Below are positions 18,191-57,949 of a stretch of 64,000 nt of DNA, piece after piece. The stretch's first letter is position 1, and every line of letters begins with the position of its first letter. Where the stretch lies: NCBI RefSeq assembly GCF_007748035.1, contig NZ_CP036278.1:4092001-4156000 (forward strand). The letters run 5' to 3'. A model generated the notes under the pieces. The model was given only the letters and a program-made list of their open reading frames with translations. It was not told the origin of the DNA and made no database searches. Source of the DNA: Aeoliella mucimassa (GTDB taxonomy: Bacteria; Planctomycetota; Planctomycetia; Pirellulales; Lacipirellulaceae). Made by a program: the position numbers and the translations under genes.

Positions 18191-18557
18191 GGTAAAATCC
18201 TTTTCCTAACTGATCTAACTGGCCCAACATCGGCGAGGTGCTGTTTCTGGGCGAAACAAGAGGAGTGCTAGCTCCGAATTATCGGAGAAGCCTTCCAATG
18301 CGGCAACCCCGTCGACTATCTCATCGACACAAAGGCCCCTCCGACACATCGGGCTCTCTAATACATCTGATTCTTCGGCAGGTTGGGCTCTTCGACAAAC
18401 AAAGAGCGCACTTCCGCATTGTTTAGCAATCGGGAACTTTGCGATAGCAATTGGCCACCTAGTGCGGTCTAATATACACATGACCACCAACACCAATCGT
18501 GACCTTTGCACTCAGCATTCCCCAATCCGAAGGAATGCACCACCTGCTAGAGCCATC
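18191..18557. other. Intergenic spacer upstream of cysK
   Basis: About 370 bp with no convincing gene. It should hold the cysK promoter and leader on the minus strand, but I could not pick a reliable promoter by eye. A 98-codon open frame on the minus strand has no recognisable features. Confidence 0.4.
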
Positions 18558-18700
18558 GTTGTGCCCCCAGGGGGCAATTGAAGTTTTCACTTGCGACACT
18601 TCCCCCTACCGCAAACTGTTTTGCAGGAGCAAGTTACGACCACCAGGGTCGACGTAAGAATTGCCCCCACCGATCGTTTTTCGGCAAAGTGGGGGCAAAA
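18558..18700 (-). repeat. Dispersed hairpin element, copy A
   Basis: Read on the minus strand this is an 8-bp stem GCCCCCAC/GTGGGGGC (18663-18670 with 18689-18696) around a loop with a second small stem, then TTCTTACGTC, a variable middle of about 70 bp, and a 7+1+7 palindrome TGCCCCC-T-GGGGGCA (18562-18576) followed by CAAC. The same order and sequences occur at 27183-27327 on the plus strand. It lies upstream of cysK in the same direction. It could be a small RNA, a leader structure or a short non-autonomous repeat; no ORF is inside. Confidence 0.7.
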
Positions 18701-19112
18701 CTGAACTACTACCGGCTGGAAGCCGGTAGGTTTGGAAAGAGTTCGTGAGCTACGGACTGAAGTCCTTCACTCACGAAGGCGTTACGCGGAAGTTATCTTC
18801 CCCGTCTTTGGGCTCCGTTCCCCGCTGACCCTGGATATACGCGGTAATCGCTTCCTCAGTCACACTTCCGCTAGACGCCACAAAGTACCCGCGGGCCCAC
18901 AAATGACGCCCCCAGTACTGCTTTTGCAGATGCTGGAACTCCATCAGAAGCTTTCGCGAGTTCCTCACCTACTGTAACTTCTCGCCCCAAACGAAATGGC
19001 ATTTCAAAATAAAGCGGCAATGTGCCCCAGTCCGGTAACTATCCATCCTAGTAGTATATGAACCTGAAGGTTTCGCCTGAAGGCGAGGGTTCTAACCCCA
19101 TCGGTTGGATAA
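18699..19112 (-). mobile_element. Internally deleted IS200/IS605-type element
   Basis: About 414 bp. The left end (AACTGAACTACTACCGGCT, with hairpin ACCGGCT/AGCCGGT) and right end (ending CATCGGTTGGATAA, with hairpin CGCCT/AGGCG) are nearly identical to those of the complete 583-bp copy at 56761-57343, but about 170 bp of the middle of the transposase gene is missing. The left end directly abuts hairpin element A. It cannot make transposase but keeps both ends, so it might be mobilised in trans. Confidence 0.85.
18771..19046 (-). pseudogene. IS200-type transposase remnant
   Basis: Matches the intact 147-residue transposase encoded at 56834-57277. The first 20 or so codons (MDSYRTGAH...) and the last 60 (RKLLMEFQHLQKQYWGRHLW... 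to VTPS) remain, while the middle with the HUH metal site is deleted and the junction is frame-shifted. The catalytic Tyr segment AYIQGQRG is kept. Non-functional by itself. Confidence 0.85.
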
Positions 19113-26928: not shown

Positions 26929-27182
26929 GTTACTCGGAGGGAAAAAGTAGGTAGGAATTTCCAAGCGAGCCCTTTCGGCATCGCGCGATGAGTTTCTGCT
27001 ACTATATCACCCCAGCTTCTGAAAATCAGGCAAATCTGAGGGGTGGATCGCTATCTCGCCCCTCAGGCGGATGTTTGTTCGCCAAAACCGGAGTGTTCTT
27101 GGGCGTGAATCCGCAAGTTTGTCGAAACCGCCCACCCGTGCTGTCGCGCAGGCGTGACGACTCGTTCGTTTCACGGGCGTTA

Positions 27183-27327
27183 TTTTGTCCCCACTTTGCC
27201 GGAAAATCGATTGGTGGGGGCTTTTCTTACGTCATGACCATTCTCTGTAACTCCCTTGATTGTTTCGACTTGCAACTATCGCAATTCACGAAACTCAAAA
27301 CTCCAAATGCCCCCTGGGGGCACAACA
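27183..27327 (+). repeat. Dispersed hairpin element, copy B
   Basis: Stem GTCCCCAC/GTGGGGGC (27187-27194 with 27214-27221, one G-T wobble) is followed by CTTTTCTTACGTC, a variable middle, and the palindrome TGCCCCC-T-GGGGGCA (27308-27322) with CACAAC after it. Same architecture as copy A (18558-18700, opposite strand). It lies about 260 bp upstream of the family P member at 27585 in the same orientation. The rest of the 26929-27584 spacer shows no gene. Confidence 0.7.
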
Positions 27328-27584
27328 AAAGACTCGATCCATAAATAAGGGAATCGACTTTACTCATTCAAAAACAAACAACGCACCTCGACAGCGATAC
27401 CATCATCACGACTCCATCGAACACGACTCTTTTCAGTTTCACTCGCAATCGAGCGGGGCCATCAACACATGTACCCACGTACATTACACCAGAACAGGTG
27501 GCCAATTTCAACCATAAACTTGTCGATCCCTCGATTCCCCCGATTGCACTATCCCGCTAGCCAAGGCCGACGCATAATAGGCGG

Positions 27585-56570: not shown

Positions 56571-56760
56571 ATAGATTCCCAATTTACCCATCGGTGGGAA
56601 AATTGAATCCGCGCCCACGCTACAAAACCAGTGCTTTTCGCGCTCGAATAGATTCCCATTTCCCAAAACGCATCCATTGGGAATCTATTTTCACCGTGGG
56701 AATCAATCGCAAGTCGTTTCACTGTATGCATTTACATCAATACCTCCGCGGAAAGTGCCC
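56571..56760. repeat. REP-like palindromes before the IS200-type element
   Basis: Several copies of the word TAGATTCCCA or its complement. The clearest unit is a 12-bp stem AATAGATTCCCA / TGGGAATCTATT (56647-56658 with 56678-56689). Other units start at 56571 (ATAGATTCCCAATTT) and 56696 (GTGGGAATCAA). The same word begins directly after the IS at 57342. Confidence 0.65.
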
Positions 56761-57343
56761 AAACTGAACTACTACCGGCTGGAAGCCGGTAGGTTTGGGA
56801 AGAGTTCGTGAGCTACGGACTGAAGTCCTTCACTCACGAAGGCGTTACGCGGAAGTTATCTTCCCCGTCGCTGGGCTCCGTTCCCCGCTGCCCCTGGATA
56901 TACGCGGTGATCGCTTCCTCAGTCACACTTCCGCTAGACGCCACAAAATACCCGCGGGCCCACAAATGACGCCCCCAGTACTGCTTTTGCAGATGCTGGA
57001 ACTCCATCAGAAGCTTTCGCGAACTCTTGCCCTTGAGATACTGCATGATCTTGCTGGGCGAGAGATTCGGAGGGCATGACAACAAAACATGCACATGATC
57101 GGCCGAGACCGCCCCCTGCAGTATCTCAATATCGTTCGTCCGACACACCTCACGCACGATTTCACGCACCCGTACCCCGACGTCACCTCTCAGGATCGCC
57201 TTGCGGTACTTCGTGACCCACACGAAATGGTATTTCAAATCAAAGCGGCTATGTGCTCCAGTCCGGTAACTATCCATCCCAGTAGTATATGAACCTGAAG
57301 GTTTCGCCTGAAGGCGAGGGTTCTAACCCCATCGGTTGGATAA
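56761..57343 (-). mobile_element. IS200/IS605-type element (complete)
   Basis: About 583 bp with one transposase gene on the minus strand and subterminal hairpins ACCGGCT/AGCCGGT on the left and CGCCT/AGGCG on the right, as usual for single-strand HUH elements, with no target duplication. Ends are shared with the deleted copy at 18699-19112. Flanked on both sides by REP-like palindromes. Confidence 0.85.
56834..57277 (-). CDS. IS200-type tyrosine (HUH, Y1) transposase
   Basis: 147 residues, the normal length of TnpA of IS200. N-terminal FDLKYHFVWVTKYRK, metal site HVHVLLSCPP (HUH motif, about residue 62), LMQYLKG-like KIMQYLKGKSSR and the catalytic-Tyr helix EEAITAYIQGQRG (Tyr about 124). 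It cuts and rejoins single-stranded DNA at hairpins. The frame is intact. No TnpB gene accompanies it. Confidence 0.9.
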   Translation of the reverse strand: MDSYRTGAHSRFDLKYHFVWVTKYRKAILRGDVGVRVREIVREVCRTNDIEILQGAVSADHVHVLLSCPPNLSPSKIMQYLKGKSSRKLLMEFQHLQKQYWGRHLWARGYFVASSGSVTEEAITAYIQGQRGTEPSDGEDNFRVTPS

Positions 57344-57369
57344 TAGATTCCCACCCATGGGAAACTATT
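57342..57369. repeat. REP-like palindrome after the IS200-type element
   Basis: Arms AATAGATTCCCA / TGGGAAACTATT with one mismatch around a 4-base loop, the same word as in the palindromes at 56571-56760. It begins at the last bases of the IS. Confidence 0.6.
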
Positions 57370-57949
57370 CTGGGAAGGAGACACGATTGGGGATTTCGGA
57401 TTACGGAATGTCCTCCTGACGGGAGCTTCTAGCGACCCGAAGGATCTAGCCTATCGCTTACAGCCTAAAGCCTAGAGCCAATAAAGCTTCCAGCGACTGA
57501 AGAATCTCGCCTGCCGCTGAGAGCTTAGAGCCTACAGCCTTAACAACCGCGCAGCAGCCAGCGCCCACGCCGGCCAACCTTCGCCTGCGTGTCGCTTAAA
57601 GTTCGAGTTCATCGGAAACATCACATTTCGCAAACCTCCTTTCTTCAAAAGCCAACAGCCGAAAGCGGATAGCCGACAGCCACCTTTACCTATCCATTAG
57701 AACACTACCAGTGGCCAATTCCTAGCGAAAACTTCCCCATTCAGCAAGTTCTCTTCGTTTAGCCCGCAGCCGCAGGCGTAGGCTAGAGAGGTGGCCTACC
57801 GATGGACGCTTTTCTGGCTCAGGACCTGAAACCACAAGACCGTCCCCCATCATCGCGAATCCCTGAACACTCCCCCTCGGTTGCTCCGGAGAGGGCTACC
57901 AAGCATACTTGGGATGCACGACGACTCTGCCTTGCTGGGGAACGCATTG
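57370..57949. other. Repeat-rich spacer before cardiolipin synthase
   Basis: About 580 bp without a convincing gene. It contains two imperfect direct repeats of period 61 bp (57424-57480 and 57485-57540, both beginning AGCTTC and ending in AGAGCC or CAGCCT words), then low-information sequence with many TAGCC/AGCCT words. The promoter for the next gene should be near its end. Confidence 0.4.

Follow-up and report, generated by a model that had tools for sequence, protein, structure and literature searches.

The window, a stretch of 64,000 nucleotides from the Aeoliella mucimassa chromosome (genome G000; 6.6 Mb in a single contig), contains three members of one repeat family. Copy A, a 143-bp double-hairpin module of the GCCCCC subfamily, is located at 18559–18701 on the minus strand, where it was read from the sequence and scored 118 bits with a covariance model (R2). 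Its left hairpin GCCCCCA..TGGGGGC, with a loop of approximately 20 nt, was read at 18663–18696 (minus strand), followed by a four-box core at 18589–18657 (minus strand) that consists of TTACGnCG, GTAA, TTRC and CGTAAGT at fixed spacing and has 1 mismatch in 22 to the core pattern. The right hairpin, a 7+1+7 palindrome detected by a palindrome scan, lies at 18562–18576 (minus strand). A second module (ATTAGA block), which is promoter-like on the plus strand, was placed at 18428–18485 (minus strand) with a weak nhmmer match (E = 0.018, this copy being in the training set), and no boxA was recognised in it. Against the left end of copy A lies an internally deleted IS200-like element (18701–19110, minus strand) that is foreign to the repeat; base 18701 is common to the end of copy A and the last base of this IS. 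Copy B, also a 143-bp double-hairpin module, is located at 27182–27325 on the plus strand (104.6 bits with R2; sequence read). It is composed of a left hairpin TGTCCCCA..TGGGGGC with one G-U wobble (27186–27221, read from the sequence), a four-box core with 3 mismatches in 22 (27227–27295), and a right hairpin that the palindrome scan again gave as a 7+1+7 palindrome (27308–27322), all on the plus strand. Its second module (27472–27529, plus strand) has the form ATTACA..GGTGGCCAATTTC and is promoter-like on the minus strand (nhmmer E = 0.0012, copy in the training set); no boxA was recognised there. The third member belongs to the AATAGATTCCCA subfamily and holds its left hairpin and core at 56647–56783 on the plus strand (R2, 59.7 bits for 56647–56789). 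A complete IS200-like element (56784–57341, minus strand), whose 558-bp length was read from L150, is inserted at the foot of its right hairpin (57342–57369, plus strand), and its second module, an ATTAGA block, follows at 57686–57737 (plus strand; nhmmer E = 1.3e-4, outside the training set).

The sequence-only reading had described A and B as two diverged copies of a hairpin element, and this was borne out, as all the features it named are present at both sites. The GC-rich stem with a wobble change was found, the change being C to T in copy B, and the two 7+1+7 palindromes are the only ones in the window at up to 2 mismatches, a number (two) reached in 4 of 100 shuffles. The shared word TTCTTACGTC is likewise present in both copies, but it is not rare alone, occurring at 3 places in the window at up to 1 mismatch, as in shuffles. 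The two copies are identical at 92 of 143 aligned positions overall and at only 22 of 59 in the middle, in agreement with the "variable middle" of that reading; yet four fixed half-sites lie inside it, so that it is not simply variable. A second conserved block to the right of the hairpin module had been overlooked. When copy A was searched against the genome by blastn, 52 matches were obtained at E ≤ 10, itself included and many of them halves of one copy. A and B are hence not the only two copies, and these many further matches exclude chance as the source of their likeness.

Size, anatomy and distribution of the family

Thirteen complete copies were found in an evenly spaced 400-kb sample, in addition to the three in the window. 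Extrapolation from 13 copies per 400 kb gives approximately 215 for the genome, in which at least 150 matches were detected at E ≤ 0.01. The dispersal of this large, lineage-restricted intergenic family is clear, and it probably comprises 200 or more short, gene-free intergenic repeats in one bacterium and some relatives. The first alignment contained 29 of 30 extracted copies (L026 was left out; L029 and L035 have TTCCCA-type ends); all 29 were 142–144 bp long when trimmed at alignment columns, and the 76-column interior was gap-free in every one. Pairwise comparison of 35 copies with 400-bp flanks showed that homology starts most often at the left tip and that the best pairs stop near 143 bp, the best pair being 83% identical. 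Homology thus starts and stops at the element edges, instead of running on as a longer duplicated block. With gene calls from a codon model trained on the window, 28 copies were intergenic with the exception of two overlaps; in the sample, of which 78.6% is coding, 19 of 20 elements were intergenic.

From left to right, the first module comprises a hairpin with a loop of approximately 20 nt, a core, and a second, tight hairpin. Within the core, four half-sites (CTTACG/CGTAAG) in alternating orientation start at block positions 3, 23, 46 and 66; their 20/23/20 spacing is fixed, and many of the intervening bases are near random. Left and right stems share their sequence within aligned copies, with few hybrids, e.g., L029. 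No pair stands out in the covariation of the interior, for which the largest z over all pairs was 2.35 (29 copies); the score was reached by 119 of 500 shuffles, and the number of paired cells by 18 of 500. A long interior cloverleaf was rejected on this lack of covariation. The outer stems exhibited no covariation within the first 29 copies either, because they are too uniform to show any. A cross-species set of 49 chosen elements from two species, rather than every copy, was evaluated for the left stem against a shuffle control that ignores relatedness, with few stem types involved: pairing was 75.8% against 67.9% in shuffles, the covariation score 0.221 against 0.131, and the cells changed on both sides 33 against 16.6 (0/500 for each), whereas the number of pairs and the pair types were not above shuffles (129/500 and 327/500). 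Sliding this stem by one column gave a similar double-change count (34) and a lower score (0.158). The structured RNA suggested previously is supported only in part: the left stem covaries across subfamilies on three of five measures, whereas the interior and the first 29 copies exhibit no covariation. The RNA, if any, is more likely read from the strand opposite to that assumed in the previous suggestion.

The stems differ by subfamily and species, as exemplified by GCCCCCA and AATAGATTCCCA in G000. A covariance model also finds elements of approximately equal length with the ends AATAGATTCCCA/TGGGAATCTATT (AATAG type), so that inverted terminal repeats of two kinds, GTTTTGCCCCCA/TGGGGGCAAAAC and AATAGATTCCCA/TGGGAATCTATT, are observed, of which the outer 4–5 bases vary. 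The AATAG hairpin pattern occurs at 119 places in G000 (0 for the reversed-pattern control) and elsewhere in the genome collection, from which its own genome was possibly left out, in two other, unrelated records only. Homology of the AATAG copies with all 21 others compared begins approximately 77 bp left of the module. Some AATAG elements (L117, L118, L119 and L127) are extended leftward by tandem AATAGATTCCCA boxes with a period of approximately 22 bp. A third form of approximately 154–162 bp keeps the inner half-sites, as judged by eye. The congener G003 has other stems (TTGCCCCAA, TTGACCCAA, GTTTTTTC) with the same core, and, taken species by species, the forms are GCCCCCA or GATTCCCA; TTGCCCCAA or TTGACCCAA; and TTTTGGGCCCA. 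The congener G001 has two copies whose hairpins are of the GTTTTGGGCCCA type; their core differs, and their second module was detected only weakly (E = 0.009 and 0.048). The G001 layout matches the family at L255 (near 18000) and L259 (near 10100), the core words being GGGTTTTG/CAAAACCC. The genome G176, which comes from another family, has different flanks and the same core spacing; the core was detected at up to 3 mismatches in 6 of 7 loci, and the reversed control, allowed up to 4 mismatches, gave 0 over 668 kb of loci.

The distribution beyond these genomes is sparse. R2 matched 3 of 246 genomes of the order at E ≤ 1e-4, and an R1 search of 29 relatives matched three, namely G000, G003 and, once and weakly, G013. 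The core pattern at up to 3 mismatches was found in 7 of 397 genomes of the class, strongly in G000 and G003 and at 1–2 places in five others, which is fewer genomes than the reversed control matched (25); this draw of 397 left out G176. The exact core pattern was absent from viral contigs, and blastn with one copy (L002) gave no match in plasmids or phages.

The second module and its promoter-like signals

The second module is approximately 58 bp long and lies to the right of the hairpin module in a fixed orientation, 45–365 bp away unless an IS intervenes. Word counts in the 300-bp flanks of 35 copies detected ATTAGAC on the right in 10 copies, where 0.07 were expected, and weak signals on the left, where the best word occurred in 6 copies (1.0 expected). 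Within 700 bp of 57 copies, ATTAGA was found on the right in 39 cases on the element strand and 4 on the opposite strand, the corresponding counts on the left being 0 and 2. The block was placed beside all 35 core-bearing copies of G000 (30 with GCCCCC and 5 with TTCCCA stems) at a distance of 45–260 bp, by ATTAGA in 24, by GTGGCCA in 10, and by eye in one. An nhmmer profile made from 49 blocks was applied at E ≤ 0.5 to 464 kb, i.e., the window and evenly spaced regions, and gave 20 hits. For eighteen of them (7 training copies and 11 others), a same-strand hairpin module lies 62–897 bp to the left; of the remaining two, one is found 1.3 kb beyond a module on its right side, a predicted gene intervening, and the other approximately 280 bp from a lone hairpin. 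Counted from the modules, a hit lies within 900 bp at 18 of 21 places and not at L242, L234 (the 1.3-kb case) and L235 (at a region edge). L242 is the L003 copy, whose block was found by word search with no profile hit. The same profile, untrained on G003, hit 10 of 12 G003 copies; the G003 element that occupies the shared L012 site, identified by eye, gave no hit for the second module. This close linkage of profile hits to hairpin modules indicates that the element is most likely two-part, consisting of the hairpin module and the second module, which is an unexpected build for this repeat family. By eye only, the left loop and the second module seemed to contain imperfect terminal repeats, which are not claimed.

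On the opposite strand, the second-module consensus reads GGCCAAaaATcgttgttGAAt, approximately 16 nt, and TGnTCTAATg, with two forms of the upstream half. This gives a promoter-like order of a hexamer, N16 and TGnTCTAAT that faces the hairpins. TCTAAT and TATAAT disagree at a key position, and no promoter was called at the second module when one G003 copy was scanned for sigma-70. A sigma-54 reading was inconsistent by eye and was dropped. A boxA-like word GCTSTTTGRCAAYT, of the type known from rRNA leaders, was detected at up to 2 mismatches in 14 positions, 21–36 nt after TGnTCTAAT, in 15 of 59 copies, the set being those of 69 copies that have TCYAAT in the right flank. By group, it was found in 6 of 29, 2 of 18 and 7 of 12 copies, where shuffles gave an expectation of at most 0.03 each. 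At up to 1 mismatch, boxA has three sites in 464 kb, all to the right of a module; at up to 2 mismatches genome-wide it is no commoner than the reversed control (28 vs. 37). A general stem before boxA was not clearly above shuffles (3/29, 4/18 and 0/12 at p ≤ 0.05). Judging from these signals, the second module is likely to be a promoter with a leader, the elements may be transcribed by themselves, and each would probably form its own noncoding transcription unit.

Gene context, occupancy and candidate mobilising enzymes

Both copies had been read previously as lying upstream of a gene in the same direction. This is not general, as 8 copies point with the genes and 7 against in tandem-gene contexts, and the gene surroundings overall look like the background. 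Of 25 copies whose two neighbours were both called, one lies in a convergent space, but with 15 of 117 in the background this apparent avoidance is not compelling. Among the promoter-facing proteins, 30 of 34 were scanned, and neither a common theme nor a regulon was evident; they include PALP (cysK), an mfd-like protein, catalase, SAM synthetase, enolase, and two ECF-type sigma factors. When 12 G003 element loci were compared with those of G000, no common neighbouring protein was found at 1e-10. Rfam gave 0 matches at gathering in the window and 3 matches at E ≤ 1 in 10 loci, among which only Acido-Lenti-1 exceeded gathering, away from the element. This RNA lies outside the element at L103 2979–3024 (minus strand; 43.7 vs. 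gathering 37). Limited searches of the open-access literature yielded nothing describing this repeat family. Taken with the Rfam negatives, this is consistent with the former statement that no named family matches. A leader RNA or riboswitch is disfavoured by the neutral orientation and the gene context.

Six sites of G000 and G003 that are anchored on one shared gene were compared by eye, and five are occupied in one congener only. Beside the shared gene, G000 lacks a counterpart of the G003 copies L265 and L267, and G003 lacks one of the G000 copies L002, L030 and L296. The protein beyond the site on the other side gave no match at any of the six, so that they are not strict empty sites; synteny breaks there anyway. 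The L012 site is occupied in both G000 and G003. It holds an element with species-specific stems in three congeners (G000:C1:279154; G003 L263; G001 L193) in the same orientation, although in G001 just a hairpin is present, at a contig end. The alternatives are a hot spot at this site and the persistence of some positions; such shared occupancy and orientation is not predicted by independent insertion, and counts against a mobility reading. At the site of copy A, no element was found upstream of cysK in G001 or G003. G001 keeps cysK and lipA collinear; the other neighbour of copy A has a 37%-identical homologue there, inverted and approximately 0.9 kb away, and the intervening sequence contains no element words. 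No target-site duplication was noticed by eye in a few copies. The many dispersed copies, the sharp edges, and the occupancy that differs between congeners nevertheless support what had been proposed as a small non-autonomous repeat with conserved ends. Mobility of the elements is likely; no two-flank empty site was among those compared.

Neither a transposase nor a RAYT nor an autonomous copy was linked to the family. G000 has 13 Y1_Tnp matches, none of which is flanked by these hairpins as its own ends; they are six equal-score IS200-like matches, three deleted derivatives, and four others (three genes and one with an internal stop) that are not tied to the family. The IS200-like copies (L147–L152 and L155–L157) comprise six with 162 aa and three with a shortened 65-aa frame. 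All nine are inserted after TCTWTT, and five of the nine exactly at the 3′ foot of an AATAG hairpin. They sit at the hairpin feet as if the hairpin marked the target. The IS200-like element was set aside as the mobiliser, since it looks like an intruder inserting after TCTWTT. A RAYT mobiliser was not tied to the family either, as judged from the Y1_Tnp neighbourhoods. The Y1 match of L153 lies approximately 420 bp from an element. This RAYT-like gene (L153 1260–2000) is located between its own GC-rich palindromes GCGCCACCAGGCTACGC..CCGCTCCGCGGCT, which are unrelated to the family by eye. No paired element boxes were found near L154, L158 or L159. The Y1_Tnp gene at L154 1466–2130 has AAGGGGACATTCTACTTTT-like words, inverted, at its two ends. 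No half-elements separated by a gene were found in 464 kb. An identical 326-aa protein (partial in L124), apparently a transposase by its look, occurs in the right tails of four AATAG elements (L109 2080–3060, L117, L123 and L124).

Interpretation and likeness to known systems

Based on their copy number, sharp edges and species-specific occupancy, the elements would have spread through intergenic DNA as protein-free, non-autonomous mobile units. The second module would most likely fire a short noncoding transcript towards the hairpin module, on which a boxA antiterminator may act in some copies. The matched hairpins and the four half-sites would most likely be the recognition ends for a putative trans-acting protein, and a changing specificity of that protein would account for the concerted change of the stem arms between subfamilies and species. 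We hold this reading, i.e., a small non-autonomous mobile element with two modules in fixed orientation, its own noncoding transcript and protein-recognised ends, with slightly better than even confidence. Possible, and proposed only tentatively, is that it represents a bacterial counterpart of SINEs: mobile and protein-free, in 200 or more copies, with its own promoter and in part an rRNA-type antiterminator, the ends and internal sites being rewritten in concert in each species and the promoter module being kept.

Two inverted palindromes might instead be mobilised as single-stranded DNA by a RAYT-type Y1 transposase, as REPINs or BIMEs, with the right-hand module incidental. Both ends are indeed palindromes of the same stem in high-copy intergenic repeats, and besides the IS200-like copies the genome has three Y1_Tnp genes plus a fourth that carries an internal stop, the L153 match being near an element. 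However, the repeats on either side of L153 are different ones of its own, the other three loci have no paired boxes nearby, the second module is closely linked, and the interior exhibits no compensatory pairing, which PMC3116915 reports for REPIN spacers; we regard this explanation as rather unlikely. The regular 20/23/20 spacing of alternating half-sites without covariation, which recurs in a genome of another family, and the L012 position shared between congeners would fit a chromosomal protein-binding array, in which half-sites and stems co-evolve with a nucleoid, segregation or global regulator protein. Such an array is nonetheless unlikely, considering that five of the six one-gene-anchored sites differ between congeners, that the distribution is patchy (3 of 246 genomes of the order), and that one hairpin fills 119 places of one genome with two unrelated records elsewhere. 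A riboswitch or attenuator RNA acting in cis on the downstream gene would agree with the intergenic position, often 100–350 bp from a gene start, and with the left stem covarying on some measures, but it is highly improbable given the orientation of 8 with and 7 against the genes, the promoter-facing proteins without a common theme, the G003 and G000 loci without a shared neighbouring protein, and the lack of an Rfam family over an element.

On the reading of a two-module mobile element, two odd hairpins lead to a large, fast-evolving repeat family, which could account for an appreciable part of this genome's intergenic DNA. Were it transcribed, one chromosome would contain hundreds of self-promoted noncoding units, some with antiterminators. 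The concerted change of the stem arms between congeners provides a handle for finding the recognising protein, and also bears on how bacterial interspersed repeats spread and change specificity.

MITEs and non-autonomous IS derivatives are short, protein-free and dispersed, and have matching inverted ends. The present elements are likewise short, protein-free and dispersed with terminal inverted repeats, but each end alone forms a hairpin, a target duplication was not noticed by eye in a few copies, and no parent element was found in the 464 kb examined. The likeness to rRNA antitermination leaders, to which boxA belongs (PMC5725501), is that a subset of copies has GCTSTTTGRCAAYT downstream of TGnTCTAAT on the strand that reads into the module; here, however, the carriers are dispersed repeats and not an rRNA operon, a general stem ahead of it was not clearly above shuffles, and the transcription is a prediction. 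REPINs, REPs and BIMEs with RAYT are similarly high-copy intergenic palindrome pairs with species-specific stem families and a near-constant length (PMC3116915, PMC3733652), and two inverted palindromes as a unit are found here as well. IS elements also insert at these repeats, as they reportedly do into REPs (PMC8450116). The present module is 143 bp long, as compared with 71 bp between the two 16-mers of GI REPINs (PMC3116915), and differs by its four conserved half-sites, the closely linked second module, an interior without compensatory pairing, and having no linked RAYT. The GTAG/CGTC tag described in PMC3733652 was not noticed by eye at the stem foot, though CGTC occurs some bases beyond, inside the first half-site. 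From what PMC3116915 and PMC3733652 report, REPINs and the GTAG/CGTC REPs are the nearest systems in behaviour. The family is best read as REPIN-, BIME- and MITE-like, yet it is filed in none of these.
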